A stretch of 64,000 nt of DNA, taken from the NCBI GenBank assembly GCA_947627185.1, contig CANQVF010000006.1:26533-90532 (forward strand), given 5' to 3'. The translations under genes and the position numbers were made by a program. The DNA is from an uncultured Clostridia bacterium. Its GTDB lineage: Bacteria; Bacillota; Clostridia; TANB77; CAG-508. Positions 12,639 through 54,214 of the stretch are shown here, one piece after another (the stretch's first letter is position 1; each line of letters opens with the position of its first letter). A model generated the notes under the pieces. It saw only the letters and a program-made list of their open reading frames with translations. It was not told the DNA's origin and did not search any database.

Positions 12639-12702
12639 GTGTGCATTGAAATAATAAAAAGAAAGGATGTTAGATATAAGTTCTAACAAAATAAAAGATA
12701 AT

Positions 12703-13563
12703 ATGAAAAAAGTGTTTTTAATTGGAGCAGATGGAATGCTTGGAGGAGAATTAAAAGAAAGATTAGAAAAAAATTATGAAGTAGTAGGAACAACAATAGA
12801 AACTTTAGACATTTGTGATAAATCAGCAGTTCTTGCTAAAGCAAAAGAAATAAAGCCATATTTTATAATTAATTGTGCTGCATTTACAAATGTTGATGCT
12901 TGCGAAGTAAAAGAAGATTTAGCATTAGCTGTTAATGGAACAGCATTAGAAAATATTGCTGAAGCTGCAAAACAAGAAAATGCTACATTAATACATATTA
13001 GTACAGATTATGTTTTTGCAGGAAATAAACCAATAAATGAAATATACACAGAAGATATGGAGCCAAATCCAGTTAGTGCTTATGGTAGAACAAAATTAGT
13101 TGGTGAACAAAATGCTAAAAAAGCAGGAAAATATTATATTTTAAGAACAGCTTGGCTTTATGGATTAGGTGGAAAAAATTTTGTAAAAACAATGCTTAAA
13201 TTATCTGAAAATCATGATGAAATATCTGTTGTAGATGACCAACACGGAAGCCCAACTTCAACAACAACACTTTGTGAAATTATAGAAAAAATCATGGAAA
13301 AAGAACCAGAGTATGGTATATATCATTCAACAAATGAAGGCTTTACAACATGGTGTAAATTTACAAAGAAAATATTTGAATATGCTAACATTAAAACAAA
13401 TGTTAAAGCAATAACTTCAGAAGAATATAAAGAAATGTATCCTGCATCTAGTGATAGACCAAAGAATAGTCAGCTATCAAAAGATAAATTAAAAAGTGTT
13501 GGAATAATTCCAGCAAATTGGGAGGATGCTTTAAAAGAATATTTAAAGGAGGAATTAAAATAA
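12703..13563 (+). CDS. rfbD: dTDP-4-dehydrorhamnose reductase
   Basis: [33 protein letters not shown]; start chosen at MKKVFLIG rather than track start 12667. Confidence 0.93.
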
Positions 13564-14480
13564 TGAAAGGTATTATTTTAGCAGGAGGTAGTGCTACAAG
13601 ATTATATCCTATAACACTAGCTGTATCAAAGCAAATGTTACCAGTATATGATAAACCAATGATTTACTATCCTTTGTCAACTTTAATGATGGCAGGAATT
13701 AGAGAAGTATTAATCATTTCTACACCAGTTCATTTACCAGCATTTAAAAGTCTATTAGGTGATGGTTCTAGATTTGGAATGAAATTAGAATATAAAGTTC
13801 AAGAAAAACCTGTTGGACTAGCTGATGCTTTTATACTTGGAGAAGAATTTATAGGAAAAGATAATGTTGCTTTAATATTAGGTGACAATATGATATATGG
13901 TTCTAGAGTTGAAAGAGTTTTAAAAGCTGCTAGTCGTTTAAAAGAAGGTGGAATTATTTTTGGATATCAAGTTGCAGATCCAACATCTTATGGAGTTGTA
14001 GAAATTGATAAATCTGGTACAGCCTTATCCATAGAAGAAAAACCAGAAAATCCAAAATCAAATTTTGCAGTTCCAGGAATTTATTTTTATGATAATGAAG
14101 TTGTAAAAATTGCAAAATCTATAAAACCTTCAGATAGAGGAGAATTAGAAATAACAGATGTAAATAAAAAATATATGGAGCAAGGCAAATTGCATGTTAT
14201 ACCATTAGGTAATGGCTATGCTTGGTTTGATACAGGTTCTGCTGATAGATTATCAGATGCTTCAGATTATGTAAAAGCAATAGAATTAAGACAAGGAACA
14301 CAAATAGCATGTTTAGAAGAAATTGCATATAGAAATGAATGGATTTCTAAAGAAAGTTTATTAGTTGAAGCGGAAAAATACAAAAAAACAGAATATGGAA
14401 AATATTTAAAAAGAATAGCACAGCAAGATTATAGAGAATATAAAGAAATATATGAAAGTAATTTGTTTGATGCAAATTAA
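13563..14480 (+). CDS. rfbA: Glucose-1-phosphate thymidylyltransferase
   Basis: [47 protein letters not shown] overlap with rfbD. Confidence 0.97.
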
Positions 14481-14614: not shown

Positions 14615-15199
14615 ATGGGCAAATTTACTAGAATTGATACTTCAATAGATGGAGTTTATGTAGTAGAACCAACAGTATTTGGAGATAACAGAGGTTATTT
14701 CATGGAAACATATAGTAAAACAGATTTTGAAGAAATTGGAATAACAAATGATTTTGTGCAAGATAATCAATCAAAATCAAAAAAAGGAGTTTTAAGAGGA
14801 TTGCATTTTCAAAAAGAAAATACACAAGCTAAACTTGTTAGATGCATAAAAGGCGAAGTATTTGATGTTGCAGTTGACTTAAGACCAGGAAGTAAAACTT
14901 ATGGAAAATGGGAAGGTGTAATCTTATCTGAAGAAAATAAAAAGATGTTTATGATTCCTAGAGGATTTGCTCATGGATTTTTAGTTCTTTCAGAAGAAGC
15001 AGAATTTAGTTATAAATGTGATGATGTATATAATCATTCAGCAGAAGGCGGATTGAAATGGAATGATCCAGAAATAGGTATTGTTTGGCCAGAAGTTCCA
15101 GGAATGAAACCAGATGAATATTTAACATCAGAAAAAGATGGTAAATGGCCAACACTTAATGAATTAAGAAATACAGATTTATTTTCTAATTTAAAATAA
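14615..15199 (+). CDS. rfbC: dTDP-4-dehydrorhamnose 3,5-epimerase
   Basis: FVQDNQSKSKKGVLRGLHFQ, VDLRPGSKTYGKW, IPRGFAHGFLVLSEEAEFSYKCDDVY. Confidence 0.96.
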   Translation: MGKFTRIDTSIDGVYVVEPTVFGDNRGYFMETYSKTDFEEIGITNDFVQDNQSKSKKGVLRGLHFQKENTQAKLVRCIKGEVFDVAVDLRPGSKTYGKWEGVILSEENKKMFMIPRGFAHGFLVLSEEAEFSYKCDDVYNHSAEGGLKWNDPEIGIVWPEVPGMKPDEYLTSEKDGKWPTLNELRNTDLFSNLK

Positions 15200-16034: not shown

Positions 16035-17006
16035 ATGAAAAATATATTAGTTACAGGTGCAGCAGGTTTTATAGGTGCTAATTTTGCAGAATTAATGGTA
16101 AAAAAATATGAAGGTAAATATAACATTATAGTATATGATAAATTAACTTATGCAGGAAACTTACATAATTTAGATGGAATAAAAGATAAAATTACTTTTG
16201 TAAAAGGAGATATATGTGATTTTGATTTTGTAATGGAAACATACAAAAAATATAATATTGATAGCATAGTTCATTTTGCAGCAGAATCACATGTAGATAA
16301 TAGCATTAAAAATCCTTTTATATTTACACATACAAATGTAATTGGAACACACACACTTTTAGAAGCTGCAAAACAATTTTGGGGTGAAGGAAGTGAGAAT
16401 AAATTTGTACATGTTTCAACAGATGAAGTTTATGGAACACTTGGAGAAACAGGATATTTTACAGAAACTTCTCCTATTAAACCAAATAGTCCATATTCAG
16501 CATCAAAAGCATCATCAGATTTAGTTGCTTTAGCTTATAGTGAAACATATAAAATGAATGTAAGTGTAACAAATTGTTCAAATAATTATGGACCATATCA
16601 ACATCATGAAAAATTAATACCACACATGATTTCTATGGCATTAAAAGATCAAAAATTACCAGTATATGGACAAGGATTAAATATTAGAGATTGGCTTTAT
16701 GTAGAAGATCATTGTGAAGCTATTGATATAATTTTACATAAAGGTAAAAAAGGTGAAAGATATAATATTGGTGGACACAATGAAAAAAGGAATATAGAAA
16801 TAGTAAAACTAATTTTGGAAAGACTTGGAAAACCAGAATCACTAATTTCTTACGTTGAAGATAGAAAAGGACATGATTATAGATATGCAATTGATCCTAC
16901 TAAATTAAAAAATGAGTTTGGTTGGGAACCAAAAACAATGTTTAAGGATGGAATTGTTAAAACTATAGATTGGTATTTAGCACATCCTGAATATTTAATG
17001 AAATAA
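16035..17006 (+). CDS. rfbB: dTDP-glucose 4,6-dehydratase
   Basis: ILVTGAAGFIGANF, HFAAESHVDNSI, STDEVYG, YSASKASSDL. Confidence 0.96.
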   Translation: MKNILVTGAAGFIGANFAELMVKKYEGKYNIIVYDKLTYAGNLHNLDGIKDKITFVKGDICDFDFVMETYKKYNIDSIVHFAAESHVDNSIKNPFIFTHTNVIGTHTLLEAAKQFWGEGSENKFVHVSTDEVYGTLGETGYFTETSPIKPNSPYSASKASSDLVALAYSETYKMNVSVTNCSNNYGPYQHHEKLIPHMISMALKDQKLPVYGQGLNIRDWLYVEDHCEAIDIILHKGKKGERYNIGGHNEKRNIEIVKLILERLGKPESLISYVEDRKGHDYRYAIDPTKLKNEFGWEPKTMFKDGIVKTIDWYLAHPEYLMK

Positions 17007-21901: not shown

Positions 21902-21970
21902 TTTTAATAAATTTATTTAAATGCACAGATTATTTTGCTATTAGTGAAATAAGAAAGGAAGTATATAAAA

Positions 21971-23095: not shown

Positions 23096-23117
23096 ATTAT
23101 AGATTATAGACTATGGA

Positions 23118-23304
23118 TTATAAATAATTATATTTATTGTTCATTCCAATTTCTCGTTCAAACAATTATCACATAATTGCTAAATAATTTTTTTGGCACC
23201 CTTCCATCAAAAGATGAACTCTTTCCAAAAAAATTATTAATCAATTTCAGCTCAATTGTTTTCAATTCGAAATTTTCATTTACAATAAATATAATTATTT
23301 ATAA
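23118..23304. repeat. MITE-like or structured intergenic element with 23-bp perfect terminal inverted repeats
   Basis: TTATAAATAATTATATTTATTGT (23118-23140) is the reverse complement of ACAATAAATATAATTATTTATAA (23282-23304); inner AATAATTTTTTTGG / CCAAAAAAATTATT. Confidence 0.75.
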
Positions 23305-23340
23305 GTTTTTATCAATAAAATTATGTTAAATGGAGAAAAA

Positions 23341-23956
23341 ATGTATAAAAAATTTTTTAAAAGATTTTTAGACATAATTATTAGTTTAATAAGTTTAATT
23401 ATTTTATCACCAATAATGTTAATTGTAGCAATATTAGTAAGAATAAAACTTGGAAGCCCAATAATTTTTAAACAAGAAAGACCTGGTAAAAATGAAAAAA
23501 TATTTAAGCTTTATAAATTTAGAAGTATGTCAGATAAAAAAGATAAAAATGGAAAATTACTTCCAGATAGTGAACGATTAACGAAATTTGGAAAAATATT
23601 AAGAAGTACAAGTCTAGATGAACTTCCAGAACTTGTTAATATTTTAAAAGGAGATATGAGCTTAATTGGACCAAGACCACTTGCTGTTTCATATTTACCT
23701 TACTATAATGAAAAAGAAAAGCATAGACATGATGTAAGACCAGGTTTAACTGGACTTGCTCAAATAAATGGAAGAAATGCTTTAAATTGGGAAAAAAGAT
23801 TTGAATATGATTTAGAATACGTAAATAATATTACTTTTATTAATGATTTAAAAATATTATTTAAAACATTTTTTAAAGTTTTAAAAAGAGAAAATGTTGT
23901 AACTAGAGGAACAGGAAAAACAATAGATTTTGATGAATATAGGAGAAATAATTTGA

Positions 23957-23976
<20 letters not shown>
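23341..23976 (+). CDS. Phosphoglycosyl transferase (PglC/WcaJ-type sugar transferase)
   Basis: KRFLDIIISLISLIILSPIM, FKQERPGKNEKIFKLYKFRSM, GDMSLIGPRPL, RPGLTGLAQINGRN. Confidence 0.95.
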
Positions 23977-30922: not shown

Positions 30923-31978
30923 ATGATTATTTTAAAAGGATTAATAGCGATAATTGTTTTTTTAATAGTGCCATTTTTATTAGGATTGTTAATAACAAGA
31001 TTTACCAAAAATGAAAAAAATAATATTATACTTGCTTATTTAATAGGCTATTTAATAGAATTTGCAATATGTGAAATAATTTCTATTCTATTAATTTTTA
31101 TGCAAAAAGAATATAATGTGTTATTAATAACTTATGTTTTTATTATAGGAATTTTGAGTTTAATATCTTTTGTAATAAATTTTAAAAGTTTTAAAGAAAT
31201 AATTCTAGATAATATAAAAAAAATAAAAGAACTTCCTAAGTTATTATCAATAATCTGTATAGGATTAATATTAGTTCAAATGTTTATTTATGCATTTTAT
31301 ACTCACATAGATGATGATGATGCATTTTATGTAGGAACTTCTGTTACTACAGTTCAAACAAATACTTTATATAAATATTCACCAACAACAGGAATAACTT
31401 CTGGAGAAAATATTTTATTAAGATATAGATTAAGTCCATTTCCATTATATATGGCAGTGCTTTCTTCAATATTAAATATACATCCAACAATTGTAGCACA
31501 TACAATTTTTCCAGTTATAATTTTACCAATTATTTATAGTGTATATTATTTGTTATCAAAAGAAATTTTTAAAGAGGATAAAGAATCATCAATTTTATTT
31601 GTAATATTGATTAATCTTTTAAATATATTTGGTGGATATTCAATAAGAACTAATTTTGCATTTTTACTTTTCCGTATATGGCAAGGAAAAGCATTACTTG
31701 CAAATTTGTTAATACCATCAATTTGGTTATTTGTTTTAAAAGCACATAAAAATAATTATAAATTATTAGATTGTTTTATATTATTAATATTAGTTTTTGC
31801 AGCAAATTTAACAACAACCATGGCAATAGGTTTTGCACCAATTTCTTTGATGGGACTTGCTTTTGCATTAGAATTAATAGATTTTAATTTTAAAAAGTTC
31901 ATTAAAAATATTTTAAAATGCTTAGTATGTTGTATGCCTAGTATAATTTATGGTCTAATATATCTTTTGTTTAATTAA
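30923..31978 (+). CDS. DUF6077-like polytopic membrane protein, N-terminal part
   Basis: IDDDDAFYVGTSVTTVQTNTLYKYSPTTG..RYRLSPFPLYMAVLS; continues in the same frame after stops. Confidence 0.75.
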   Translation: MIILKGLIAIIVFLIVPFLLGLLITRFTKNEKNNIILAYLIGYLIEFAICEIISILLIFMQKEYNVLLITYVFIIGILSLISFVINFKSFKEIILDNIKKIKELPKLLSIICIGLILVQMFIYAFYTHIDDDDAFYVGTSVTTVQTNTLYKYSPTTGITSGENILLRYRLSPFPLYMAVLSSILNIHPTIVAHTIFPVIILPIIYSVYYLLSKEIFKEDKESSILFVILINLLNIFGGYSIRTNFAFLLFRIWQGKALLANLLIPSIWLFVLKAHKNNYKLLDCFILLILVFAANLTTTMAIGFAPISLMGLAFALELIDFNFKKFIKNILKCLVCCMPSIIYGLIYLLFN

Positions 31979-33999: not shown

Positions 34000-34791
34000 A
34001 TGGAATTTTTTAAAATACTTTTTAAAAACAGAAAATTAGCAATAAAACTTGGAAAAAATGACTTTAGAAACAGATTTGCAAATACAAGTTTAGGAACTGT
34101 ATGGGGGTTTGCACAACCTTTTGTATTTATGATTACTTATGTAATTGTGTTTCAATATATTTTAAAATCTGGAAGTAGTGGTGAATATCCTTATGTTGTT
34201 TGGTTTTTACCGGGAATGTCAATGTGGATGTTTTGTAGTGATGCAATTCTTACATCAAGTAATTCAATTAGAAATTATAGCTATTTAGTAAAAAAAGTGG
34301 TTTTTCCGGTTGATATTATTCCTGTAATATCATTAACATCTGCTAGTTTTATTGGTGTATTTTTAATTACTATAGCAGTTGTAGTTGCATCTTTATTTGG
34401 ATATATACCAAATTTTTTAAATGTTATATATATTCTATTTTGTGCAATTTGTTTTATAATAGCTTTAACTAGATTTACATCTGCTTTAACTACTGTTGTT
34501 CCAGATTTTTCACAATTATTAAATATATTAATTCAGTTATGCATGTGGTTTACACCAATTGTATGGAACCTAGATTTTATTGTTGATTCAAAATTAATTA
34601 ATTTATTTAAATGTATGCCATTTACTTATTTAGTAGAGGGATTTAGACAAGCTTTTATGGAAAATTCAACAATCATTACAGAAGGAAATTATATGTTTAC
34701 ATGTGTTTTCTGGCTTATAACAATTTTAGTTTTCTTATGGGGAAACAAAGTATTTAATAAAACAAAAAAAGATTTTGCAGATGTATTATAG
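34000..34791 (+). CDS. ABC-2 polysaccharide export permease (Wzm-like)
   Basis: NDFRNRFANTSLGTVWGFAQPFVFMITYVIVFQYI; MPFTYLVEGFRQAFM. Confidence 0.93.
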   Translation: MEFFKILFKNRKLAIKLGKNDFRNRFANTSLGTVWGFAQPFVFMITYVIVFQYILKSGSSGEYPYVVWFLPGMSMWMFCSDAILTSSNSIRNYSYLVKKVVFPVDIIPVISLTSASFIGVFLITIAVVVASLFGYIPNFLNVIYILFCAICFIIALTRFTSALTTVVPDFSQLLNILIQLCMWFTPIVWNLDFIVDSKLINLFKCMPFTYLVEGFRQAFMENSTIITEGNYMFTCVFWLITILVFLWGNKVFNKTKKDFADVL

Positions 34792-34828: not shown

Positions 34829-35803
34829 ATGGAAAGTAAAACCATAGATATTTTACTTGCTACATATAATGGAGAAAAATATTTAAAACCACAATTAGAT
34901 AGTATTTTAGCTCAAACATATTCAAATTTTAGACTAATAATATCTGATGATTTATCATCAGATAATACTAGAAAAATTTTAGAAGAGTATAGTAAAAAAG
35001 ATAATAGAATTGTTTTATATTTTCAAGAAAAAAATCTTGGTGTAATAAAAAATTTTGAATTTTTATTAAAAAAAGTAGAAGCAGAGTATTATATGTTTTC
35101 AGACCAAGATGATATTTGGAAAGAAAGTAAAATAGAAAAATCAATTAAAAAAATAGAAGAAACTAAAAGCGATTTAGTATATTCTGATTTAGAAGTTGTT
35201 GATGAAGATTTAAGGGTAATTTATAAATCTTATTGGAAACTAAAAGGAATTTACAAAAAAATAAAAAAATATAATAATTTTGAAAGCTTATATTTAAATA
35301 ATTTTGTAACAGGTTGTACTATTCTTTCAAAAAAGGAATTAATTGATATTTTTTTACCACTTCCAAATACAAGTAAATATGTACTTCATGATTATTGGAT
35401 TCCATTAATTATTAGTCAAAAAGGAAAAATAAGTTATATTGAAGAACCGTTAATTAAGTATAGACAGCATAAAAATAATAAAATTGGTTCTAAAAAAAGA
35501 TCAGATGAATTAAATAATTTAGTTGAAATAAGAAATTTATTTATAGATGTAAAAAAGCAACATTTTAAAGTTTTTATAGAAAATGAAAATAAATTTATTG
35601 ATGAAAATATTAAAAAATTAAATAAAGAAGCTTTAAAATATTATGAAATGCTAGAAACTAAAAACATTATTAACTTTAAAAATTGGGCATTATTTTTTAA
35701 GCTTTACAAATATGAAGAATTTAATTATAAAATGCAAAATTTTTTAATTTTAAATATTCCAATTTTAGCAAAGTTATTATTTAAATTAAAAAAGATATTT
35801 TAA
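34829..35803 (+). CDS. GT2 (rhamnosyltransferase-like)
   Basis: DILLATYNGEKYLKPQLDSILAQTYSNFRLIISDD, FSDQDDIWKESKIEKS. Confidence 0.92.
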   Translation: MESKTIDILLATYNGEKYLKPQLDSILAQTYSNFRLIISDDLSSDNTRKILEEYSKKDNRIVLYFQEKNLGVIKNFEFLLKKVEAEYYMFSDQDDIWKESKIEKSIKKIEETKSDLVYSDLEVVDEDLRVIYKSYWKLKGIYKKIKKYNNFESLYLNNFVTGCTILSKKELIDIFLPLPNTSKYVLHDYWIPLIISQKGKISYIEEPLIKYRQHKNNKIGSKKRSDELNNLVEIRNLFIDVKKQHFKVFIENENKFIDENIKKLNKEALKYYEMLETKNIINFKNWALFFKLYKYEEFNYKMQNFLILNIPILAKLLFKLKKIF

Positions 35804-35825: not shown

Positions 35826-37121
35826 ATGAGTGATACAGTAATTAAAATTTCTAATTTAGTAAAAGAATATAAAATGTATTCAAGAAAAAAAGATAGATTG
35901 CTTGAGGCAATACTTCCTTTTTATGTAAAACATTCGACCTTTAAAGCTTTAGATGATTTTAATCTAGAAATAAAAAAGGGTGAGGTTTTAGGAATTCTTG
36001 GAAAAAACGGAGCTGGAAAATCAACTTTATTAAAAATGATTACAGGTGTTGTTTCTCCTACTTCTGGAAAAATAGAAGTAAATGGGAAGATAAGTTCATT
36101 ATTAGAGCTAGGTACAGCTTTTAATCCTGATTTAACAGGTTATGAAAATATTTATCAACATGGACAAGTTATGGGGTTATCAGACCAGGAAATTAGAGCC
36201 AAAGAAAAGGAAATAATAGATTTTGCAGATATAGGAGAACATTTATCACAACCTGTTAAAACTTATTCATCAGGTATGTTTGCAAGATTGGCTTTTGCTT
36301 GTGCAATTAATGTTGAACCAGATATTTTAATTGTTGATGAAGTTTTATCTGTTGGAGATATGGCATTTCAATTAAAATGTTTTAAAAAATTTGAACAATT
36401 TAAAAATGATGGAAAAACAATAATATTTGTTACACACAATATAAATGATATTATGAAAAATTGTAATAGAGTTATTATTTTGGAAAGTGGTAAGAAAACA
36501 TTTGATGGTACAGTAAAAGATGGTGTTAACAGATATAAAAAAATAATAGTTGGATTAGACCCAGATAAAAAAGAATTAGAGGATAATAAAGAAATAACTT
36601 TAGAAAAAAGTAAAAGCAGTAGTAGTGATAATTCTAAAAATTGGAAAGAAAAATTCAATCAAAATCCTAATATGATTGAATATGGAAACAAAGATGCTGA
36701 AGTTATTGATTATGGTATGTTTGATAAAGATGGTAATGCTGTAAATATGTTTGATAATGGAGATTATATAACTTTTAAATCTAAAGTAAAATTCAATAAA
36801 GAAGTTAAAGAACCAATTTTTACAGTAACTTTAAAAGATTTTAGTGGTAAAGATGTTACAGGAACTAATTCAAATATAGAAAAAATAGCAACAGGAACTT
36901 ATAAAAAAGGAGATATAGTAGTTATTGAATTTACTCAAAAGGTACCTGTTGCACCAGGAAAATACACTCTTTCTTTTAGTTGTACAAGATATAATGCAAG
37001 AGGAAACTTAGAAGCTTTAAACAGAAAATATGATGCTTTATTAATAGAAGTAATTACAACTAAAAATACTGTTGGATTAATTAGATTAGATTCTAATATT
37101 ACTATAAATAAAATAAATTAA
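35826..37121 (+). CDS. Polysaccharide ABC exporter ATPase with Wzt-type C-terminal carbohydrate-binding domain
   Basis: GKNGAGKSTLLKMITGVVSPTSG, SSGMFARLAFACAINVEPDILIVDEVLSVGD; C-terminal beta-sandwich region. Confidence 0.94.
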   Translation: MSDTVIKISNLVKEYKMYSRKKDRLLEAILPFYVKHSTFKALDDFNLEIKKGEVLGILGKNGAGKSTLLKMITGVVSPTSGKIEVNGKISSLLELGTAFNPDLTGYENIYQHGQVMGLSDQEIRAKEKEIIDFADIGEHLSQPVKTYSSGMFARLAFACAINVEPDILIVDEVLSVGDMAFQLKCFKKFEQFKNDGKTIIFVTHNINDIMKNCNRVIILESGKKTFDGTVKDGVNRYKKIIVGLDPDKKELEDNKEITLEKSKSSSSDNSKNWKEKFNQNPNMIEYGNKDAEVIDYGMFDKDGNAVNMFDNGDYITFKSKVKFNKEVKEPIFTVTLKDFSGKDVTGTNSNIEKIATGTYKKGDIVVIEFTQKVPVAPGKYTLSFSCTRYNARGNLEALNRKYDALLIEVITTKNTVGLIRLDSNITINKIN

Positions 37122-37188: not shown

Positions 37189-40100
37189 ATGGAAAATTTA
37201 TTATCACAATTTAAAAAGAATATAATTTCTTGGTATCCAATTGAAGAAAAACAAAAAGTTTTAGAAATTGAAAATTCTGAAGAAGTAGTTAAAGAATTAA
37301 AGAAAAAAACTTCAGAAGTAGTATCAATAGATTTAAAACATATTTCTAACGCACCAAAAAATGAATTTGATTATGTGGTATTAATTGGTATTTTGGAAAA
37401 ATTAAGTACAGAAAACGAAATACTAAAAGTATTAAATTGTGCAAGTAAAAGCTTAAAACAAAATGGTAAAATACTTTTAGCTATGAAAAATAAATTTGGA
37501 ATGAAATATTGGTCTGGTGAAAAATTTAATTCTAAGGTAGAATCTTATGATACAATTGAAAATTCTAATGAAAATGTTTTAAGTATTACTAAAATAAAAA
37601 AGATATTAAATAATTTAAATTTAAAATATAAATTTTATTATCCATTACCAGATTATGAATTAACAAATGTTATATATACAGATGAATTTATGCCAAGTAA
37701 TGATAGTATAGATTCAAGAGTAATAACTTATTGTGAAAGTGGAAAAATACTTAATTTTTCTGAAAGAAAAGCTTATAAGCAATTAATAGAAAATGATGAT
37801 AAATTATTTCCTTTTTTCTCAAATTCTTTTTTTATAGAAATAGCAAATAGCTATGAGAATATTAAGTATGTAAGTTATAGTATTACTAGAAAAGAAGATT
37901 ATAGAATAAAAACCATAATTGAAAAAAATTATGCTTTTAAATATGCAGATAATGATAATTCTTTAAAACATATAAAAAATATAGCAAGAAATATAGAAGT
38001 GTTAGAAAATTCTAATATAAAATGCTTGGATAAATATGAAAACAATAAGATAATTAGCAATTATTTAGAAGATGCTAAGTCTTATGATAAAATTTTAATT
38101 GATATATATAATAAAGATGGATTAAATTCAGTTATTGAAAAAATTAAAGAATTTCAACATCTAATACTAGATAAATTAGAAAAAAATGGCGATAGTAAAA
38201 ATTCTATTTTTGAAAAATATGAAATTACTATAGATGAAGAAATGAAAAAAAATCTACACTTTATTAAAGATGGTGTAATCGATTTAATTTTTCAAAATTG
38301 TTTAGTAAAGAATGAAAATTTATTTTGTTATGACCAGGAATGGTATGAAGAAAATGTTCCAGTAGAATTTATATTATATAGAGCAATATTTTATTTTACT
38401 GAATTAAAAAAATGTGAAAATATTGATGAAATTTATAAAAAATTAGATTTATATAATTATGCTAATGTTTTTGAGCAATTAGAAAATAAAATACAAGAAA
38501 ATATATTAGATAAAAAAATATGGAATTTACATGCAAATTCTGTTAAAGATATAGGTAAAATTGATTTAATATTAAAAAATTATGAAGATAGAATAAGTGC
38601 AACTAATAATCATATTGAAAATTTAGAGAGCAGTATCGAAAACCTAGAAAGTAATATAGAACAATATGAAAAAAGTATAAAAGATTATAAAGATATTGTT
38701 GTTGACTTAAACAAAATGGTTAAAGATAAAGATGTGGCCATAGTTGACCTAAATAAGATAATGCATGATAAAAATATTACTATAGATGACTTAAATAAAT
38801 TACTTCAAGATAAAGATGTGGAGCTTGTTAATTATGCAAATCAATTAAGAACAATATCTAATTCTTTATCTTGGAAAATTACAAAACCATTAAGAATATT
38901 TTCTTGGATGTTTAATCCTTTTAATGGTGCAAGTTTTATAGATAGAATAATGCCACCAGGTGGAAAAAGAAGAATAGAATACGATAGAAAACAAACAGAA
39001 AAGAAATATGCAAAAAAAGTTGAAAATTATTTTAAATTGTCAGATGAAGAAACAGCTGAATTTTGGAAAGGGATTGATCATAGAAAATATTTAAAATATG
39101 AAAAGAATTTAGAAAGAAAAGAAAAAGATGAACTTTCCGACTATGAAAAATGGATAGAAGAAAATACTCCAAATGATCAAGAAATTGAACAACAAGAAAA
39201 AACAAGATTTAGAAAAAGACCTAAAATAAGTATTATTATTCCTTTATATAATACAGATACAGAATATTTTAGAGAATTACTATATACTGTTCATTCACAA
39301 ACTTATAAAAAGTGGGAACTATGTTTAGCAGATGGTAGTGAGAAACCTTTAGATGATATTATATCAATGACAAAAAATGATAAAAGGATAAAATATAAAT
39401 TTTTAGGTGAAAATAAGGGAATTTCTGAAAATACTAATCAAGCAATTGCAATGGCAACAGGAGATTACATATCTTTACTAGATCATGATGATATATTAGA
39501 TATAAGTGCTTTATATGAAGTAGTAAAAGTTATAAATGAGAATAAAGATGTGGATTTTATTTACTCAGATGAAGATAAATTTCAAGTTATGGATGAACCA
39601 TATTATGAACCACATTTTAAACCAGATTACGCACCAGATACATTAAGAGCTAACAATTATATATGCCATTATAGTGTTTTTAAGAAAAAATTGATGGATA
39701 AAATAGGAAAATTTGATTCTAATTATAATGGAGCACAAGATTTTGACATTATTTTAAAAGCAACTGAAAATGCTAAAAAAATAGTTCATATTCCAAAAGT
39801 ATTATATCATTGGAGAGTTCATAAAGGTTCAACTTCTATGGAAACAGAAGCAAAGCCTTATGCAATAGATGCAGGAAAAAGAGCAGTAGAAGATCATTTA
39901 AAGAGAATTGGATTAAAAGGAAAAGTATCTAATGGAGTTAATCCAGGTACTTATCAAATAGAATATGATATTATAGGAAATCCTAAAGTTTCAATATTAA
40001 TACCAAATAGAAATGGTATTGATCTATTAAAAACATGTATAGAATCAGTTATTTCAAAAACTACTTATTCTAACTATGAAATTGTAATAATAGAAAACAA

Positions 40101-40881
40101 TAGTAATGAAGAGAAAATTTTTAATTATTATAAAAAACTAGTTAAAAATCCAAAAATTAAAGTATTGAATTATAATAAAAATACAATTTTAACAAATGAA
40201 GGCGAAAGAAATCTGGAAAATGATGATGATATGGAAAACAGAGAAGGTTTTAATTATTCTAGATTAATAAATTTTGGAGTAAGAAATACAGACACAGATT
40301 TTATAGTTCAATTAAATAATGATACAGAATTAATAACACCAAATTGGCTTGAAAAAATGGTTGGATTTTGTCAAAGAAAAGATGTTGGTGCTGTTGGGGT
40401 AAAATTATATTATCCAGATGAAACGATACAACATGCAGGAATTATGGTAGGATGTCTTCAGGTAGCAGCACATATCTTTAGGGGATTACCTAAGAAAAAT
40501 CTTGGATATTTTGGAAGAGAAAATTTAATACAAAATATGAATGCAGTTACAGCAGCTTGCATAATGACAAAAAAATCTATATTTGAAGAAGTTGGTTATA
40601 TGAATGAAAAATTTGCTGTAGCATTTAATGATATAGATTTTTGTTTAAGAATTAGAAAAAAAGGATATTTAATTATTTATAATCCTTTTGTAGAATTTAC
40701 ACATTATGAATCTAAATCTAGAGGAAATGATAATGATCCAGATAAAATTGAAAGATTTAAAGGAGAAATTAATTTATTTTTAGAAACTTGGAAAGAAAAA
40801 CTACAGTCAGGTGATGAATATTATAATAAGAATTTTAGTTTAGATTCAGATCAATATGAGATAAAAGTAAACAATAAATAA
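37189..40881 (+). CDS. Multidomain protein: methyltransferase-like, kinase-like, coiled coil, two GT2 domains
   Basis: N-terminal VLEIENSEE..FDYVVLIGILEKL; DLIFQNCLVKNENLFCYDQEW; heptad-rich 470-560; two GT2 modules (SIIIPLYNTDTEYF..; SILIPNRNGIDLLK..). Confidence 0.8.
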   Translation: MENLLSQFKKNIISWYPIEEKQKVLEIENSEEVVKELKKKTSEVVSIDLKHISNAPKNEFDYVVLIGILEKLSTENEILKVLNCASKSLKQNGKILLAMKNKFGMKYWSGEKFNSKVESYDTIENSNENVLSITKIKKILNNLNLKYKFYYPLPDYELTNVIYTDEFMPSNDSIDSRVITYCESGKILNFSERKAYKQLIENDDKLFPFFSNSFFIEIANSYENIKYVSYSITRKEDYRIKTIIEKNYAFKYADNDNSLKHIKNIARNIEVLENSNIKCLDKYENNKIISNYLEDAKSYDKILIDIYNKDGLNSVIEKIKEFQHLILDKLEKNGDSKNSIFEKYEITIDEEMKKNLHFIKDGVIDLIFQNCLVKNENLFCYDQEWYEENVPVEFILYRAIFYFTELKKCENIDEIYKKLDLYNYANVFEQLENKIQENILDKKIWNLHANSVKDIGKIDLILKNYEDRISATNNHIENLESSIENLESNIEQYEKSIKDYKDIVVDLNKMVKDKDVAIVDLNKIMHDKNITIDDLNKLLQDKDVELVNYANQLRTISNSLSWKITKPLRIFSWMFNPFNGASFIDRIMPPGGKRRIEYDRKQTEKKYAKKVENYFKLSDEETAEFWKGIDHRKYLKYEKNLERKEKDELSDYEKWIEENTPNDQEIEQQEKTRFRKRPKISIIIPLYNTDTEYFRELLYTVHSQTYKKWELCLADGSEKPLDDIISMTKNDKRIKYKFLGENKGISENTNQAIAMATGDYISLLDHDDILDISALYEVVKVINENKDVDFIYSDEDKFQVMDEPYYEPHFKPDYAPDTLRANNYICHYSVFKKKLMDKIGKFDSNYNGAQDFDIILKATENAKKIVHIPKVLYHWRVHKGSTSMETEAKPYAIDAGKRAVEDHLKRIGLKGKVSNGVNPGTYQIEYDIIGNPKVSILIPNRNGIDLLKTCIESVISKTTYSNYEIVIIENNSNEEKIFNYYKKLVKNPKIKVLNYNKNTILTNEGERNLENDDDMENREGFNYSRLINFGVRNTDTDFIVQLNNDTELITPNWLEKMVGFCQRKDVGAVGVKLYYPDETIQHAGIMVGCLQVAAHIFRGLPKKNLGYFGRENLIQNMNAVTAACIMTKKSIFEEVGYMNEKFAVAFNDIDFCLRIRKKGYLIIYNPFVEFTHYESKSRGNDNDPDKIERFKGEINLFLETWKEKLQSGDEYYNKNFSLDSDQYEIKVNNK
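38701..38826 (+). repeat. Three in-frame 42-bp (14-aa) repeats in the coiled coil
   Basis: VDLNKMVKDKDVAI / VDLNKIMHDKNITI / DDLNKLLQDKDVEL. Confidence 0.85.
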
Positions 40882-40930
40882 AAAATCAATTTTTAGTTAT
40901 AAAAAAAGCATAATTTTGAGAGGAAAAAGA

Positions 40931-42874
40931 ATGAACATTATAAAACATAGAATTAATCAAATTAAATTTTATATTGGAAAATATGGTTTTATAAAAACAG
41001 TAAAAAAATGTATTAAGATTGTACTTAGAAAAATTATTAAATTTTTAAAAGGTGAAAAGGACTTACAATATGGTGATTATGGTGGTTGGATAAAATATAA
41101 TGAGCCTAAAGATGTTGATATAAAAAAGCAAATGGAAAAAGTTTTTTCTATTTCACCTAAAATAAGTATTGTAGTCCCAATGTATAATACAAAAGAAAAA
41201 TTTTTTAAGGGTTTGGTTAATTCAGTAATTGCTCAATCTTACTCAAATTGGGAACTTTGCTTAGCTGATGGAAGTCCAAAACAGAATGAAAATTTTAAAA
41301 AATATTATGAAAAGGATGAAAGAATAAAGTATAAGTTCCTTGGTGAAAATAAAGGAATTTCTGGAAATACAAATGAAGCAATAAAAATGGCAACTGGTGA
41401 TTTTATAGCACTTTTAGATCATGATGATTTATTATCAGAATATGCATTATATGAAGTGGTATATGCTATAAATAAATTTCCAAATTCAGAATTTTTATAT
41501 TCTGATGAAGATAAAATTGATGAAAATGATAATAGATATGATGCATATTTTAAGCCTGATTTTGCACCAGATACTTTAAGATGTCAAAATTATATTTGTC
41601 ATTTTAGTATTTTTAAAAAAGAATTAATGGAAAAATTAAATGGTTTTAAAGAAAATTATGATGGTGCACAAGATTATGATATTTTTTTAAGAATGTCAGA
41701 AATAACAAAACCAGAAAACATAACACATATTCCAAAAATTTTATATCATTGGAGAGTACATAATGAATCTACTGCTAAATTAAATAGTCATGCAAAAAAT
41801 TATGCTTTTGAAGCAGGAAAAAGAGCAATTGAGGACCATTTAAAAAGAATTGGACTAGAAGGAACTGTATCAAGTGGTTGTATAGAAGGAATATATAGAA
41901 TAGATTATAAAGTAAAAGATAATCCAAAAGTATCAATAGTTATTCCAAATAAGGATGGAAATAATATTTTAAAAACTTGTATAGATTCAATACTAAAAAA
42001 ATCTACTTATAAAAATTATGAAATTATAATTGTAGAAAACAATAGTGAAACAGAAGAAATTTTTAATTATTATAAAGAATTATTAAAAACAAATAAAATA
42101 AGAATTGCAAATTATAATACTGGAAAATTAATTGAAAATGAAGAAGAATCTAGTTTATCATATACTAAGAAAAATGAAATAAAAAATTTAAAACATGAAT
42201 TTAATTATTCAGCAATTATAAATTTTGGTGTTAAATTTGCAAATGGAGATTATGTAGTTCAATTAAATAATGATACAGAATTAATAACTTCAAATTGGCT
42301 TGAATTAATGCTTGGATTTTGTCAAAGAGATGATGTTGGAGCAGTTGGAGTAAAATTATATTATCCAGATGAAACAATACAACATGCAGGAATAATTGTT
42401 GGAATTGGAGGAATTGCTGGAAATAGATTTAAAAGTATTCCTAAAAGCGGACATGGATATTTTGCAAAAGAATCAATGATAGAAAACTTAAGTGCAGTAA
42501 CAGCTGCTTGTATTATGACACCAAGAAAAATTTATGATGAAGTTGGATTTATGGATGAAAAATTAGCTGTCGCATTTAATGATGTTGATTTTTGCTTAAA
42601 AATAAGAGAAAAAGGTTATTTAGTTGTATATAATCCTTTTGTTGAATTTTGGCATTATGAGTCAAAATCTAGAGGACAAGAAAACACACCATCTAAAATT
42701 AGAAGATTTCAAGGAGAAATGAGTAGATTCGAACAAAGGTGGCCTGAAATTTTAGATAGTGGAGACCCATACTATAATGTTAATTTAAGTTTAGACACAG
42801 AAGTATATCATATGAAAAATATAAAAGTTAATTATTATGGTGAAGAAGAAATAATAAAGAAAAAAAGAAAGTAA
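40931..42874 (+). CDS. Tandem-GT2 glycosyltransferase
   Basis: Two GT2 modules: SIVVPMYNTKEKFF..LLDHDD and SIVIPNKDGNNIL..QLNNDTEL; paralog of the 37189 C-terminus. Confidence 0.9.
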   Translation: MNIIKHRINQIKFYIGKYGFIKTVKKCIKIVLRKIIKFLKGEKDLQYGDYGGWIKYNEPKDVDIKKQMEKVFSISPKISIVVPMYNTKEKFFKGLVNSVIAQSYSNWELCLADGSPKQNENFKKYYEKDERIKYKFLGENKGISGNTNEAIKMATGDFIALLDHDDLLSEYALYEVVYAINKFPNSEFLYSDEDKIDENDNRYDAYFKPDFAPDTLRCQNYICHFSIFKKELMEKLNGFKENYDGAQDYDIFLRMSEITKPENITHIPKILYHWRVHNESTAKLNSHAKNYAFEAGKRAIEDHLKRIGLEGTVSSGCIEGIYRIDYKVKDNPKVSIVIPNKDGNNILKTCIDSILKKSTYKNYEIIIVENNSETEEIFNYYKELLKTNKIRIANYNTGKLIENEEESSLSYTKKNEIKNLKHEFNYSAIINFGVKFANGDYVVQLNNDTELITSNWLELMLGFCQRDDVGAVGVKLYYPDETIQHAGIIVGIGGIAGNRFKSIPKSGHGYFAKESMIENLSAVTAACIMTPRKIYDEVGFMDEKLAVAFNDVDFCLKIREKGYLVVYNPFVEFWHYESKSRGQENTPSKIRRFQGEMSRFEQRWPEILDSGDPYYNVNLSLDTEVYHMKNIKVNYYGEEEIIKKKRK

Positions 42875-42959: not shown

Positions 42960-44828
42960 ATGAAAAGAAATTTTGAGAAGGTTAAATATTATTTTAGACG
43001 ATATGGAATAATAGAAACTTTAAAAAAAATATTAAAAAGAATATTTCATATTACTGAAAATCGTATGTCTAATCAAGAACAATATAAGGCTTGGATGAAA
43101 AATAATTTACCAACAGAAAAAGATTATGAATTTCAAATAAATAGAAAATTTGATTCAAATCCTAAAATAAGCCTTGTAGTTCCAATGTACAATACAAATG
43201 AAGCTTTTTTTCAAGAATTACTAAATTCTGTTAAAAACCAAACTTATTCAAATTGGGAATTATGTTTAGCAGATGGAAGTGATATAGAAAATATTAATTT
43301 TAAAAATCTTTTTGAAAATGAATCTAGAATAAAATATAAATTTTTAAACAAAAATGAAGGAATTGCTGATAATACAAATGAAGCAATAAAAATGGCAACA
43401 GGTGATTTTATTGGCTTTTTAGACCATGATGATTTACTTTCTAGAGATGCATTATATGAAATAGTAAAAGTTATAAATGAAAATATGGGTGTAGATTTTA
43501 TTTATACAGATGAAGATAAAATAGATGAAAAAGGAAATTTTTTTGAACCATATTTTAAACCAGATTATTCTCCAGAAACTTTAGAATGTAATAACTATAT
43601 TACTCATTTTGTTGTTGTTAATTGTAATTTAATGAAAAAAGTTGGTTATATAAATTCTAAATTTAATGGAGCTCAAGATTTTGATTTTGTTCTTCGAGCA
43701 ACTCAAAAAGCAAATAAAGTTATACATATTTCAAAAATATTATATCATTGGAGAAGTGCAGAAAATTCTACAGCGAATATTGCTTCAGCCAAACCTTATG
43801 CCTATGAAACAGGAGTAGATGTTATAAAAGAAAATTTAAAACAACTTAAGAAAGATGCAATAGTAGAATATGGACAAGATGTTCCAGGAATATATAAAGT
43901 AAAATATAAGGTAATAGGAAAGCCAAAGGTATCTATCCTTATACCTAATAAAGATAATATAAAATTATTAAAAAATTGTATTACATCAATTTTAAAAATG
44001 ACAAGTTATAATAATTATGAAATAATTATTATAGAAAATAACAGTGAAAAAAATGAAACTTTTAAATTTTATAATGAGCTATTAAAAATAAATAAAGTAA
44101 AAATTTTAAATTATAATAAAAATACTATTTTAGATAATAATGGTGAAAAAGAAGTAAAATTTAAAAATAATTTAGAAAATGCAAAAGAATTTAATTATTC
44201 AAAATTAATAAATTTTGGTGTTAAAAATTGTAATGGAGAATATATTCTTCAACTTAATAATGATACAAAATTATTATCAAAAGATTGGCTTGAATTTTTT
44301 ATAGGATATGCACAGCAAAAAGAAATCGGAGCAATTAGTGGTAGACTTTATTATAATGACAAAACAATTCAGCATGCTGGGATTATAGTTGGTATTTCTG
44401 GAATTGCAGGAAATGCACTTGTGAATTTGCCTTATGGAAAACATGCTTATTTTGGAAGAGAATCAGCTATTAGAAATGTTTCAGCTGTTACTGGTGCATG
44501 TTTGTTTTGCAGAAAAGAACTTTATGAAGAAGTAGAATATATGGATGAAAACAATTTCAAAGTAGCTTTTAATGATGTTGATTTTTGTTTGAAGTTATTG
44601 AAAAAAGGATATAGAAATTTATATATTCCGTATGTTGAATTATTTCACTATGAATCTAAATCTAGAGGATATGAGTATTCTAAAGCAAAAGAAGAAAGAT
44701 TTAAATTAGAATGTGAAAATTTTAAAGAAAAATGGAAAGATTTTTTAGAAAAAGGTGATCCTTATTATAATAAAAATTTTACAAGAAAAACTTGTAATTA
44801 TGATATAGAAACTGAAAAAGTAATTTAA
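42960..44828 (+). CDS. Tandem-GT2 glycosyltransferase
   Basis: SLVVPMYNTNEAFF..FLDHDD and SILIPNKDNIKLL..QLNNDTKL; paralog of the preceding gene. Confidence 0.9.
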   Translation: MKRNFEKVKYYFRRYGIIETLKKILKRIFHITENRMSNQEQYKAWMKNNLPTEKDYEFQINRKFDSNPKISLVVPMYNTNEAFFQELLNSVKNQTYSNWELCLADGSDIENINFKNLFENESRIKYKFLNKNEGIADNTNEAIKMATGDFIGFLDHDDLLSRDALYEIVKVINENMGVDFIYTDEDKIDEKGNFFEPYFKPDYSPETLECNNYITHFVVVNCNLMKKVGYINSKFNGAQDFDFVLRATQKANKVIHISKILYHWRSAENSTANIASAKPYAYETGVDVIKENLKQLKKDAIVEYGQDVPGIYKVKYKVIGKPKVSILIPNKDNIKLLKNCITSILKMTSYNNYEIIIIENNSEKNETFKFYNELLKINKVKILNYNKNTILDNNGEKEVKFKNNLENAKEFNYSKLINFGVKNCNGEYILQLNNDTKLLSKDWLEFFIGYAQQKEIGAISGRLYYNDKTIQHAGIIVGISGIAGNALVNLPYGKHAYFGRESAIRNVSAVTGACLFCRKELYEEVEYMDENNFKVAFNDVDFCLKLLKKGYRNLYIPYVELFHYESKSRGYEYSKAKEERFKLECENFKEKWKDFLEKGDPYYNKNFTRKTCNYDIETEKVI

Positions 44829-47515: not shown

Positions 47516-49738
47516 ATGAAAGAAAAACTTACTAAGTTTTTTAAAACTTTAGAATATAAAGTAAAAGAATTATATAAAAAAATATTAGAAAAATTTATAT
47601 ATTTTATAAAAAAAGAAAATTATACAAAAACAAAATTATTGTTAGTAGCTATTATTTCAGGATTAATGGCTATTATTTGTGAATATACAATATTTAGAAA
47701 AACACATCCTGCTTTTATTTCTAAAAATAGAATTATGCTTGTTTCTATTATATTTATGTTCATAGGAATACATTTCGTTTTTAAACTTTCAAAAATGTAT
47801 GAATTTATACATAAACATAGGTACAAAATTGCTTGTGCCTTTTTACTATTTGTAATGATATTTAAATATTCAGGTTCATCAATAATAAATTTTCATGAAT
47901 TTACAGCAATACAACCACATTCTGATGATTCAAGATATCATACATTACTTGGAAAAGCAAGAACAATTAGAACAGATGAATGGGCTACATCTACTATTTA
48001 TATTTTATCTCAAAGCAAAACAGAAGAACCATTTGAATATTTTGCTAATGTTTTAAGAGGAACTGAAACAGATATGTTTACAGTTGCAAATTCTCCAGTA
48101 AAAGATATTCTAATGCTTGGCAGACCATTTCAAATTGGTTTTATGCTATTTGGAAATGATGTGGGATTAAGTTTTTATTGGAATATAAGACTAGTTGCAA
48201 TGCTACTTAGCTCTTATGAATTATGTTTAATTCTTACAAAGAGAAATAAAAAAGTATCTTTATGTGGTATGCTTGTAATAACATTTTCATCTGCCGTACA
48301 ATGGTGGTATTGCATGGATACTCTTTTATGGGGACAAATTGCTATAGTTCTTATAGATAAGTTTATGAATACAGATAAAAAAATAAATAAATATTTATGT
48401 GCTATAGGAGTTTTAATTTCAGGGTTATCCTATATATTTGTGTTTTACCCAGCATGGCAGTTGCCTTTTGGATATGTATTTTTAGCATTAATTATATTCT
48501 TATTATTTAAAAATATTAAATATGGAAAATATAGATTTAATAAACATGATATTTTAGTTATATTAATAACTGTAGTTTGTTTAGGATTATTACTTTTGAG
48601 ATGGTATAGTCTATCAGGTGATACTTTAATTGCAGAAATGAGTACAGATTATCCAGGTGAAAGAAATGAAGTAGGCGGTGGAGCACTTAATTTATATTCA
48701 TATTTTTATAATATATTTTTTAGCTTTGAAGATTTTCCAAGCCCTTGTGAATATTCATCAATGCTATCTTTATATCCAATTCCTTTAATATTAGGATTAA
48801 TATATGTAATTAGAAATAAAAAAGATTTACATTTTTGGATACCAATGTTAATTGTTGGAATGTTTTTAACTGTTTGGTGTGTATGGGGATTTCCACCATT
48901 ACTTGCTAAAATTACTAAAATGTCTATGTCAACAGCAGGAAGAACATCTATACCACTTGGAACAGTTTGTATATATTTATTAATATATTTAATTGGAAAT
49001 TTTGAAAAAGAAGATAAATTATTAAATAAAAAATTAACATATGTTTTATCTATTGTAGCAACTATTTATATTATTTATAGAGCAATAAAAACATTAGGAT
49101 TTGTTCCAGATTTCAGTTTTTATTTAGATAGATATAAATTACTATTAGGTGGAGAAATATTCTTAGCTTTAATATTTGGAATATTAAATATTAATAATGA
49201 AAAAATAAGAAATTACACTTTATATGGTTTAATCGGAGTATCATTAATGAGTGGGCTAGCTGTAAATCCAGTTATTAGAACAACAGATATTTTATATACA
49301 AAACCTATTGCAAAAAAAATGCAAGAAATAAAAAAAGAAGATCCAGAAGCAATTTGGGTTGTTAATGAAAAAAATGGTGGTTGGTATATTAACGATTATG
49401 CTTTAGCAAATGGAGTAAGAGTTTTAAATTCAACACAACTTTATCCTAATATAGAATTATTTAAAAATTTGTTAGGAAATAAAGCTGAAGAATATAAACA
49501 AATATACAACAGATATGCACATATAAATCTTGAAATTTCCGATAAAACTACAAATGTTGAATTATTATATGCAGATCATATTTCAATTCAATTAAATTAT
49601 AATGATTTATCAAAAATTAATGTAAAATATATTCTTTCAAAAGAAGAATTTAGTCAAGATAGTTTTTTTGATAATTTTGAAAAAATATATAATGAAGATG
49701 GTATGTGTATATATAAAGTAATGGAAGGTATTGAATAA
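47516..49738 (+). CDS. Large GT-C/YfhO-like polytopic membrane protein
   Basis: Many TMs; RTIRTDEWATSTIYILSQ; VQWWYCMDTLLWGQIAIVLID. Confidence 0.75.
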   Translation: MKEKLTKFFKTLEYKVKELYKKILEKFIYFIKKENYTKTKLLLVAIISGLMAIICEYTIFRKTHPAFISKNRIMLVSIIFMFIGIHFVFKLSKMYEFIHKHRYKIACAFLLFVMIFKYSGSSIINFHEFTAIQPHSDDSRYHTLLGKARTIRTDEWATSTIYILSQSKTEEPFEYFANVLRGTETDMFTVANSPVKDILMLGRPFQIGFMLFGNDVGLSFYWNIRLVAMLLSSYELCLILTKRNKKVSLCGMLVITFSSAVQWWYCMDTLLWGQIAIVLIDKFMNTDKKINKYLCAIGVLISGLSYIFVFYPAWQLPFGYVFLALIIFLLFKNIKYGKYRFNKHDILVILITVVCLGLLLLRWYSLSGDTLIAEMSTDYPGERNEVGGGALNLYSYFYNIFFSFEDFPSPCEYSSMLSLYPIPLILGLIYVIRNKKDLHFWIPMLIVGMFLTVWCVWGFPPLLAKITKMSMSTAGRTSIPLGTVCIYLLIYLIGNFEKEDKLLNKKLTYVLSIVATIYIIYRAIKTLGFVPDFSFYLDRYKLLLGGEIFLALIFGILNINNEKIRNYTLYGLIGVSLMSGLAVNPVIRTTDILYTKPIAKKMQEIKKEDPEAIWVVNEKNGGWYINDYALANGVRVLNSTQLYPNIELFKNLLGNKAEEYKQIYNRYAHINLEISDKTTNVELLYADHISIQLNYNDLSKINVKYILSKEEFSQDSFFDNFEKIYNEDGMCIYKVMEGIE

Positions 49739-49740
49739 TA

Positions 49741-50649
49741 ATGAATGATAAAAAAGTAGCAGTTATAATGTCAACATATAATGGTGAAAAATTTGTTAGT
49801 GAGCAATTAGATTCTATTTTAAATCAAACATATTCAAACATTGAAATAGTTGTAAGAGATGATGGTTCTAAAGATAATACTGTGAATATAATAAAAGAAT
49901 ATCAAAAAAAATATAATAATATTAAACTTTATGAAGGAGAAAATATAGGTTTTATAAAAAGTTTTTTTGAACTTCTAAAACTTACAGAATCTGATTATTA
50001 TGCTTATGCAGACCAAGATGATGTTTGGCTTGAAAACAAAATAGAACTTGCTGTGAATTTACTTAATAATTTAGATGAATCTAAGCCTAATATGGCATTT
50101 GGAAATTCAGATTATTATGATGAAAATATGAAATTTATATCAAAAGGACCAAAAAACAAAAAGTTTTCATTTTTAACTGCTTTATTTTCTTGTGTTACAC
50201 AAGGAATGACAATGACAGTAAACAAAAAAACTAGAGATATGATTATTGAAAATATGCCAAAAAGTTGCTTTTTTCATGATTGGTGGACTTATCTTTTGTG
50301 TGTAAGTATGGGAAATGTAGCTTATAGCAATGAAACTGTTGTAAAATATAGAAGAAGAAAAGAAAATGCTACTTCAGAAGGACAAGGATATTTAAGACTT
50401 CTAATTTGGAGAATAAAAAATCTTTTATTTAAAGATGGAATGCAAGATATTAAGCAACAGATGATAAATTTTAAAGATTATTATTATTATGAATTATCAG
50501 ATGAAAATAAAAAAATAATAGATTTATTTTCAAATGAAGATTATAGTTTTCTTAATGCATTAAAAAAAGTTTTTTATAAGGGTAGAATTAGAACAAATAT
50601 AATAGATGATATGATGATTAGAATAATATTTTTAATAGGAGTTTTATAA
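49741..50649 (+). CDS. GT2 (rhamnosyltransferase-like)
   Basis: VAVIMSTYNGEKFVSEQLDSILNQTYSNIEIVVRDDGSKD, YADQDDVWLENK. Confidence 0.92.
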   Translation: MNDKKVAVIMSTYNGEKFVSEQLDSILNQTYSNIEIVVRDDGSKDNTVNIIKEYQKKYNNIKLYEGENIGFIKSFFELLKLTESDYYAYADQDDVWLENKIELAVNLLNNLDESKPNMAFGNSDYYDENMKFISKGPKNKKFSFLTALFSCVTQGMTMTVNKKTRDMIIENMPKSCFFHDWWTYLLCVSMGNVAYSNETVVKYRRRKENATSEGQGYLRLLIWRIKNLLFKDGMQDIKQQMINFKDYYYYELSDENKKIIDLFSNEDYSFLNALKKVFYKGRIRTNIIDDMMIRIIFLIGVL

Positions 50650-51914: not shown

Positions 51915-51976
51915 GATTTCATTAAATAAAACAAAAGATATATTAAGAAGTTAAAATTAAATAAAAGGAGAAAAAA

Positions 51977-54157: not shown

Positions 54158-54214
54158 ATTTTAAAATATTTTATAGATTTTAAAAATCTAAATTAAGTTT
54201 AAGGAAGAATTAAA

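Follow-up and report, generated by a model that had tools for sequence, protein, structure and literature searches.

We consider it probable that a fused protein encoded in a 64,000-nucleotide stretch of DNA from an uncultured Clostridia bacterium (assembly GCA_947627185.1, contig CANQVF010000006.1; the whole stretch is called the window below) acts at once as terminator, ruler and polymerase of a surface glycan that is carried on a lipid, probably rich in rhamnose, and exported by the neighbouring Wzm/Wzt transporter. Its gene, at 37189-40881 on the + strand, is an uninterrupted ATG open reading frame (ORF) of 1230 amino acids. From N- to C-terminus, the protein comprises a degenerate methyltransferase (MT)-like domain, a kinase-like domain, a 12-heptad coiled coil, the motif SLSWKITKPLR, and two GT2 glycosyltransferase modules carrying DHDD and NND, respectively. 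Besides this domain order, the analysis yielded the kinase fold, intact catalytic residues, loss of the S-adenosylmethionine (SAM) site, a coil varying by heptads, a linkage to the Wzt C-terminal domain (Wzt_C), and a set of dTDP-rhamnose genes. An earlier note, made from the sequence alone, had described the protein as WbdD-like. Our best verdict is that ORF6 of the Klebsiella pneumoniae O7 system, not WbdD, is the closest known system, and that the window protein is a variant of the O7-type terminator-ruler-polymerase from a Gram-positive host. If this is true, Gram-negative length control by a coiled-coil ruler and end-capping extends to gut Gram-positives.

Domain architecture and comparison with known terminators

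The MT-kinase-coil-GT2-GT2 fusion was found again in several related, independent genomes, so an assembly artefact was rejected as its source. HMM searches for MT and kinase families, which the earlier note had proposed, produced weak MT matches but no credible match for the kinase region in Pfam or NCBIfam scans; a PDB profile search by sequence found nothing credible there either. Across 36 aligned family members, eight residues of this region are invariant (R234, K251, D365, N370, D382, Q383, E384 and W385), and the D/N/D/E/W set is kept in 36/36 members as well as in a Pseudomonas O7-type protein. The succession of D-L-x-x-x-N and Y-D-Q-E-W is the pattern of the catalytic and metal-binding loops in kinase-like folds. 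An AlphaFold2 model of the kinase only (residues 186-448; pLDDT 80.7, pTM 0.82) was compared with the PDB using Foldseek, and 50 of the 50 matches listed are kinase-like enzymes, including LicA choline kinase (2.5e-4), PRPK, APH(3'), methylthioribose (MTR) kinase and macrolide kinases. The model has a kinase-like fold, APH-like rather than eukaryotic-type, and upholds the earlier proposal of a kinase-like region over an unrelated fold.

The 1414 residues of ORF6 from K. pneumoniae O7 (Kelly et al. 2024, PMC11231755) comprise an MT, an AmiN-like kinase, a carbohydrate-binding module (CBM), a coiled coil and two dTDP-rhamnose (dTDP-Rha) GT2 modules. Its kinase and rhamnosyltransferase activities have been demonstrated biochemically, and the D441A substitution abolishes both phosphorylation and export (PMC11231755). 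The window protein shares with ORF6-O7 the order MT, APH-like kinase, coiled coil, GT2 (DXDD) and GT2 (NXD) in a single polypeptide, an ABC-transporter-dependent glycan, and the catalytic Asp, D441 corresponding to window D365, alongside metal-site residues N370, D382 and E384. The GT2 modules of ORF6-O7 use dTDP-Rha, and a like activity is predicted for the window protein from its DXDD/NXD-type motifs and the rmlABCD genes. Unlike ORF6-O7, the window protein has no CBM (Ig-like) domain after the kinase, is short by about 50-60 N-terminal residues, and has a failed SAM site, which makes its MT inactive by sequence; it also comes from a Gram-positive host, with extra dual-GT2 paralogues in place of a ribofuranosyltransferase.

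The comparison ran through a Pseudomonas asturiensis plasmid protein (L038:7908-12281), encoded directly behind Wzm/Wzt. It carries Y28, Y66, G91, G93, E112 and Y158 at the exact numbers of ORF6-O7, and its catalytic Asp, D443, fits D441; because the residue numbers coincide, we infer that it is an ORF6-O7 orthologue. Co-linear BLAST matches join it to the window protein over the coil and GT half (6e-126) and the N-terminus (2e-11), and hhalign of the N-terminal half gives 99.7% (2e-25, 435 columns). By analogy, the window protein may have the same function as ORF6-O7.

Other characterised systems share parts of this design. WbdD (with WbdA) of E. coli O9a and K. pneumoniae O3 (PMC3482155, PMC5082667) is likewise an MT-kinase-coiled coil terminator/ruler paired with a Wzt that has a C-terminal recognition domain. 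However, WbdD has no GT modules, a eukaryotic-type kinase and an active MT, whereas the window protein combines an APH-like kinase, a degenerate MT and fused GTs. No sequence similarity between the window N-terminal half and WbdD was detected in the PDB profile search. The WbdD likeness claimed earlier survives in structural terms, since a model of residues 1-574 matches WbdD 4azt over both domains (1.4e-5, 499 columns), but the nearest characterised relative is ORF6-O7. A fusion of MT and GTs encoded beside Wzm/Wzt is not new to Gram-positives: WsaE, from the S-layer glycan system of Geobacillus stearothermophilus (PMC2943079), joins an N-terminal MT to two rhamnosyltransferase domains and adjoins wzm/wzt; it differs in having an active 2-O-methyl cap and no kinase described, while the window protein has a kinase domain. 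WbbB of K. pneumoniae O12 (discussed in PMC11231755) also unites polymerase, terminator and coiled-coil ruler in a single polypeptide, but its terminator is a Kdo transferase (GT99) and its GT families are unrelated. A literature search, which did not reach subscription papers, found no description of such terminators in Firmicutes.

The methyltransferase-like domain and the predicted cap

Pfam matches at the N-terminus are weak (Methyltransf_12 at 0.004; Methyltransf_11 at 3e-4 with the N-terminal piece alone), Methyltransf_23 is matched in 16/36 family members, and the PDB profile search by sequence returned nothing but methyltransferases for the N-terminal half. Motif I is degenerate in the window protein (LEIENSEEV), as the earlier note had read it. 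ORF6-O7 residues Y28, Y66, G91, G93, E112 and Y158 served as the SAM-site reference and were read across all members. In the window protein, the positions of Y28, Y66, G91, G93 and Y158 either have no counterpart or carry another residue, and the adenine-side loop has been lost; the acidic position alone is kept. Almost all kinase-bearing Clostridia proteins have lost most SAM residues with their kinase residues intact, L072 being closest to an intact site. Separate MT genes of the same family, by comparison, keep the SAM residue set in 12/12 cases (two with D for E at 112). Such a separate intact MT gene accompanies the terminator in 7/32 family genomes, and three distant loci (L077, L078 and L080) pair a kinase lacking the MT with an intact MT encoded separately. 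Judged by these residues, the N-terminal domain is almost certainly a pseudo-METHYLTRANSFERASE, with its methyltransferase half inactive. The simplest reading of the pattern is a division of labour, in which methylation would have been lost or moved to another gene. Short (325-373 aa) intact MTs of the same family lie beside the terminator in L037 (14971-15954), L053, L060, L061, L064, L067, L069 and L073.

A search of the window's own genome found no companion MT of the same family. Because of this result and the loss of the SAM site, and because phosphorylation alone suffices for termination in O9a (PMC3482155), the bacterium most likely caps its glycan with an unmethylated phosphate monoester. 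The earlier note had taken its capping model from WbdD, with its MT and kinase; with the MT half degenerate, a cap made by the kinase only is the better reading. The pseudo-methyltransferase gives a clear prediction on the cap and on what Wzt_C must recognise.

It is unlikely that the same machine instead makes a methylphosphate cap, whether because the MT-like domain retains activity or because an unrelated methyltransferase encoded at another locus does the methylation. A methylated cap would fit the best PDB match of the Wzt C-terminal domain, 2r5o (1.1e-8), which we take to be the cap-binding domain of E. coli O9a Wzt. The separate same-family MTs also indicate that the system includes methylation in some members, and the ORF6-O7 product is capped with methylphosphate (PMC11231755). 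Against this stand the loss of all window SAM residues save the acidic one, the deleted adenine-side loop, and the failure to find a same-family companion in this genome.

The coiled coil, the linkage to Wzt_C and the proposed mechanism

The coiled coil that the earlier note had proposed runs unbroken through 12 heptads; its best period is 3.50 residues, and none of 20,000 shuffles was as strong. The kinase passes directly into it, the model being helical by DSSP beyond residue 392. Among close relatives, the distance between the DQEW and SLSW anchors is 135, 142, 163, 177 (window) or 184 residues; all values are equal modulo 7, and chance agreement of the five length classes under random in-frame indels is about 4 in 10,000. 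In O9a, coil insertions and truncations shift chain length, and one heptad corresponds to about 1 nm (PMC5082667). By analogy, the coil would set glycan chain length here as well. The close relatives supply natural rulers that differ by whole heptads in otherwise similar proteins, which makes the ruler hypothesis testable without engineered indels. The SLSWKITKPLR motif at the coil end is a candidate membrane-proximal element.

The co-occurrence of the MT-kinase module with Wzt_C was surveyed in 195 family genomes, of which 32 contain the module and 31 Wzt_C. Wzt_C is present in 31/32 genomes with the module and 0/163 without (Fisher 3e-35), and at genus level the two sets coincide, each taking in 7 of 39 genera (7/7 vs 0/32; 6.5e-8), p-values that overstate the surprise because the genomes are related. 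The exception, G048, has the module as a fragment that lies at one end of a 6.3-kb contig. At the loci examined, Wzt and the terminator share a strand, with Wzt usually upstream and often less than 100 bp away. A sample of the phylum shows Wzt_C in 5/10 genomes with the kinase versus 40/389 without. The link between terminator and Wzt_C suspected in the earlier note is borne out, and we rejected the idea that the full architecture commonly occurs apart from Wzm/Wzt: Wzt_C is missing only for distant MT-kinase forms with another C-terminus. The distant proteins L076, L082 and L083 end in a cytidylyltransferase-like domain, and Wzt_C was not detected in the L082 and L083 genomes; these forms suggest another use of the MT-kinase pair.

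Those two proteins, together with the fact that the closest folds are small-molecule kinases, favour a reading in which the kinase acts on another target, phosphorylating the glycan internally or modifying a precursor (sugar or lipid), and the coil serves as a mere linker. This is still less probable than a methylated cap, given the near-perfect Wzt_C co-occurrence in the family, a coil quantised in heptads, and a proven terminator with the same architecture (PMC11231755). It is very improbable that the protein scaffolds the polymerase complex at the membrane, both N-terminal domains being inactive: the methyltransferase half is already degenerate and WbdD also recruits its polymerase (PMC3482155), but the kinase catalytic residues, unlike the MT residues, are invariant in 36 diverse members.

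In the proposed terminator-ruler-polymerase mechanism, the two C-terminal GT2 modules and the neighbouring dual-GT2 proteins would lengthen the chain on a lipid carrier near the membrane, while the coiled coil would fix the spacing between the N-terminal kinase and the polymerase. On reaching the kinase, the non-reducing end would be phosphorylated and growth would stop; Wzt_C, with 2r5o as its best PDB match, would then bind the phosphorylated end and license export. The MT-like domain, predicted to have lost SAM binding, may persist as a structural platform. We offer a more specific evolutionary version tentatively, at somewhat less than even confidence: in this Clostridia lineage, a bifunctional MT-kinase may have subfunctionalised into a pseudo-MT and an active kinase, giving a kinase-only terminator-ruler with a plain-phosphate cap read by Wzt_C and whole-heptad coil drift tuning chain length between species.

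The relatives also show how the polymerase half varies. Most fused proteins of the genus form one supported clade of 11 rows (98/96), within which L034:7965-9620 and L035:8001-9620 have lost the GT half while their other dual-GT2 genes stay. A split of the fusion was rejected for these two, since the gene that follows is orthologous to 40916-42874 and the GT half has therefore been deleted. In L068:7459-11901, the terminator-ruler module is joined to RgpF (rhamnan synthesis protein F), not to two GT2s. The deletion and the RgpF fusion together identify the terminator-ruler as a module that combines with different polymerases. Behind unfused terminators, the next matching gene is mostly one for a dual-GT2 protein.

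Several points weigh against this overall reading. The Clostridia members are known from sequence and models, the biochemistry belongs to ORF6-O7, and ORF6-O7 itself was compared through the P. asturiensis surrogate. The kinase domain alone gives a marginal match to the proteobacterial pair (hhalign 3.4%, E 0.013, with a two-sequence profile), so for this domain the assignment to the O7 type is based on co-linearity, motifs and fold. The best Foldseek TM-scores are modest (0.40-0.43), and the model of residues 1-574 is weak (pLDDT 62.6); its structural matches were kept, and the kinase-only model was built to guard against over-reading them. One relative, L036 (131 residues), departs from the heptad rule, its 4-residue gap preceding the coil. 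The loss of the GT half in L034 and L035 means that the fused GTs are not always needed, and the phosphate might yet receive a methyl group from an unrelated methyltransferase.

Neighbouring genes and sugar supply

The fused ORF starts 67 bp after Wzt (Table 1). Its placement directly after Wzm/Wzt, as the earlier note had it, is right for the Wzt with Wzt_C, which is immediately upstream, but a GT2 gene sits between Wzm and Wzt. Likewise, the two GT2 modules of the fused protein were recovered as described, yet the idea that this single polypeptide does the polymerising needs widening: two more dual-GT2 paralogues follow the gene, so polymerisation is probably shared with neighbouring proteins. 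The window holds a complete rmlABCD set, the likely donor supply for the glycan; rhamnose as its sugar would agree with ORF6-O7.

Table 1. Features of the fused gene and its surroundings, in window coordinates
Feature	Position	Strand	Basis
Fused protein, predicted terminator-ruler-polymerase	37189..40881	+	1230 aa ORF; fusion also in relatives
Degenerate class I methyltransferase-like domain, residues about 1-150, SAM site lost	37189..37638	+	Weak Pfam MT matches, residue table
Kinase-like domain, residues 186-448	37744..38532	+	Invariant residues, AF2 pTM 0.82, Foldseek LicA/PRPK/APH(3')
Kinase residues K251, D365, N370, D382, E384	37939, 38281, 38296, 38332, 38338	+	Family-invariant
Coiled coil, residues 474-556, 12 heptads	38608..38856	+	Period 3.5, 0/20,000 shuffles
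42-bp tandem repeat (14 aa = two heptads) within coil	38701..38821	+	TRF, 2.9 copies, score 130
SLSWKITKPLR motif, residues 559-569, at coil end	38863..38895	+	Kept in close relatives
GT2 module A, residues 681-839, DHDD at 39481-39492	39229..39705	+	Pfam Glycos_transf_2 1e-36
GT2 module B, residues 932-1176, NND at 40315-40323	39982..40716	+	Pfam Glyco_tranf_2_3 9.6e-12
Wzm-type ABC-2 permease	34000..34791	+	Pfam ABC2_membrane 7.8e-17
GT2 glycosyltransferase between Wzm and Wzt	34829..35803	+	Pfam Glycos_transf_2 4.6e-29
Wzt-type ATPase with C-terminal Wzt_C (residues 283-421, 36672-37088)	35826..37121	+	ABC_tran 5e-24, Wzt_C (PF14524) 3e-34
Paralogous dual-GT2 protein, 58% identical to fused GT half	40916..42874	+	Pfam, alignment
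Second paralogous dual-GT2 protein, 51% identical to fused GT half	42960..44828	+	Pfam, alignment
rmlD, dTDP-rhamnose pathway	12667..13563	+	TIGR01214 1e-82, above cut-off
rmlA	13518..14480	+	TIGR01207 4e-136, above cut-off
rmlC, sole copy in genome (genome search)	14615..15199	+	TIGR01221 1.4e-75
rmlB	16035..17006	+	TIGR01181 1.5e-138
Bac_transf phosphoglycosyl transferase, candidate initiator on undecaprenyl phosphate	23323..23976	+	Pfam 2.1e-66

A PASTA-domain Ser/Thr kinase encoded at 58978-61020 fits a Gram-positive host. At 20027-23976, genes for Polysacc_synt_2, a DegT aminotransferase and Bac_transf stand consecutively, like a PglF/PglE/PglC-type initiation set. The glycan cluster also includes membrane proteins of unknown function at 30923-31978 (DUF6077) and 47516-49738 (DUF7657/DUF7654), and three ORFs (421, 726 and 612 aa) at 50649-56053 without a Pfam match.

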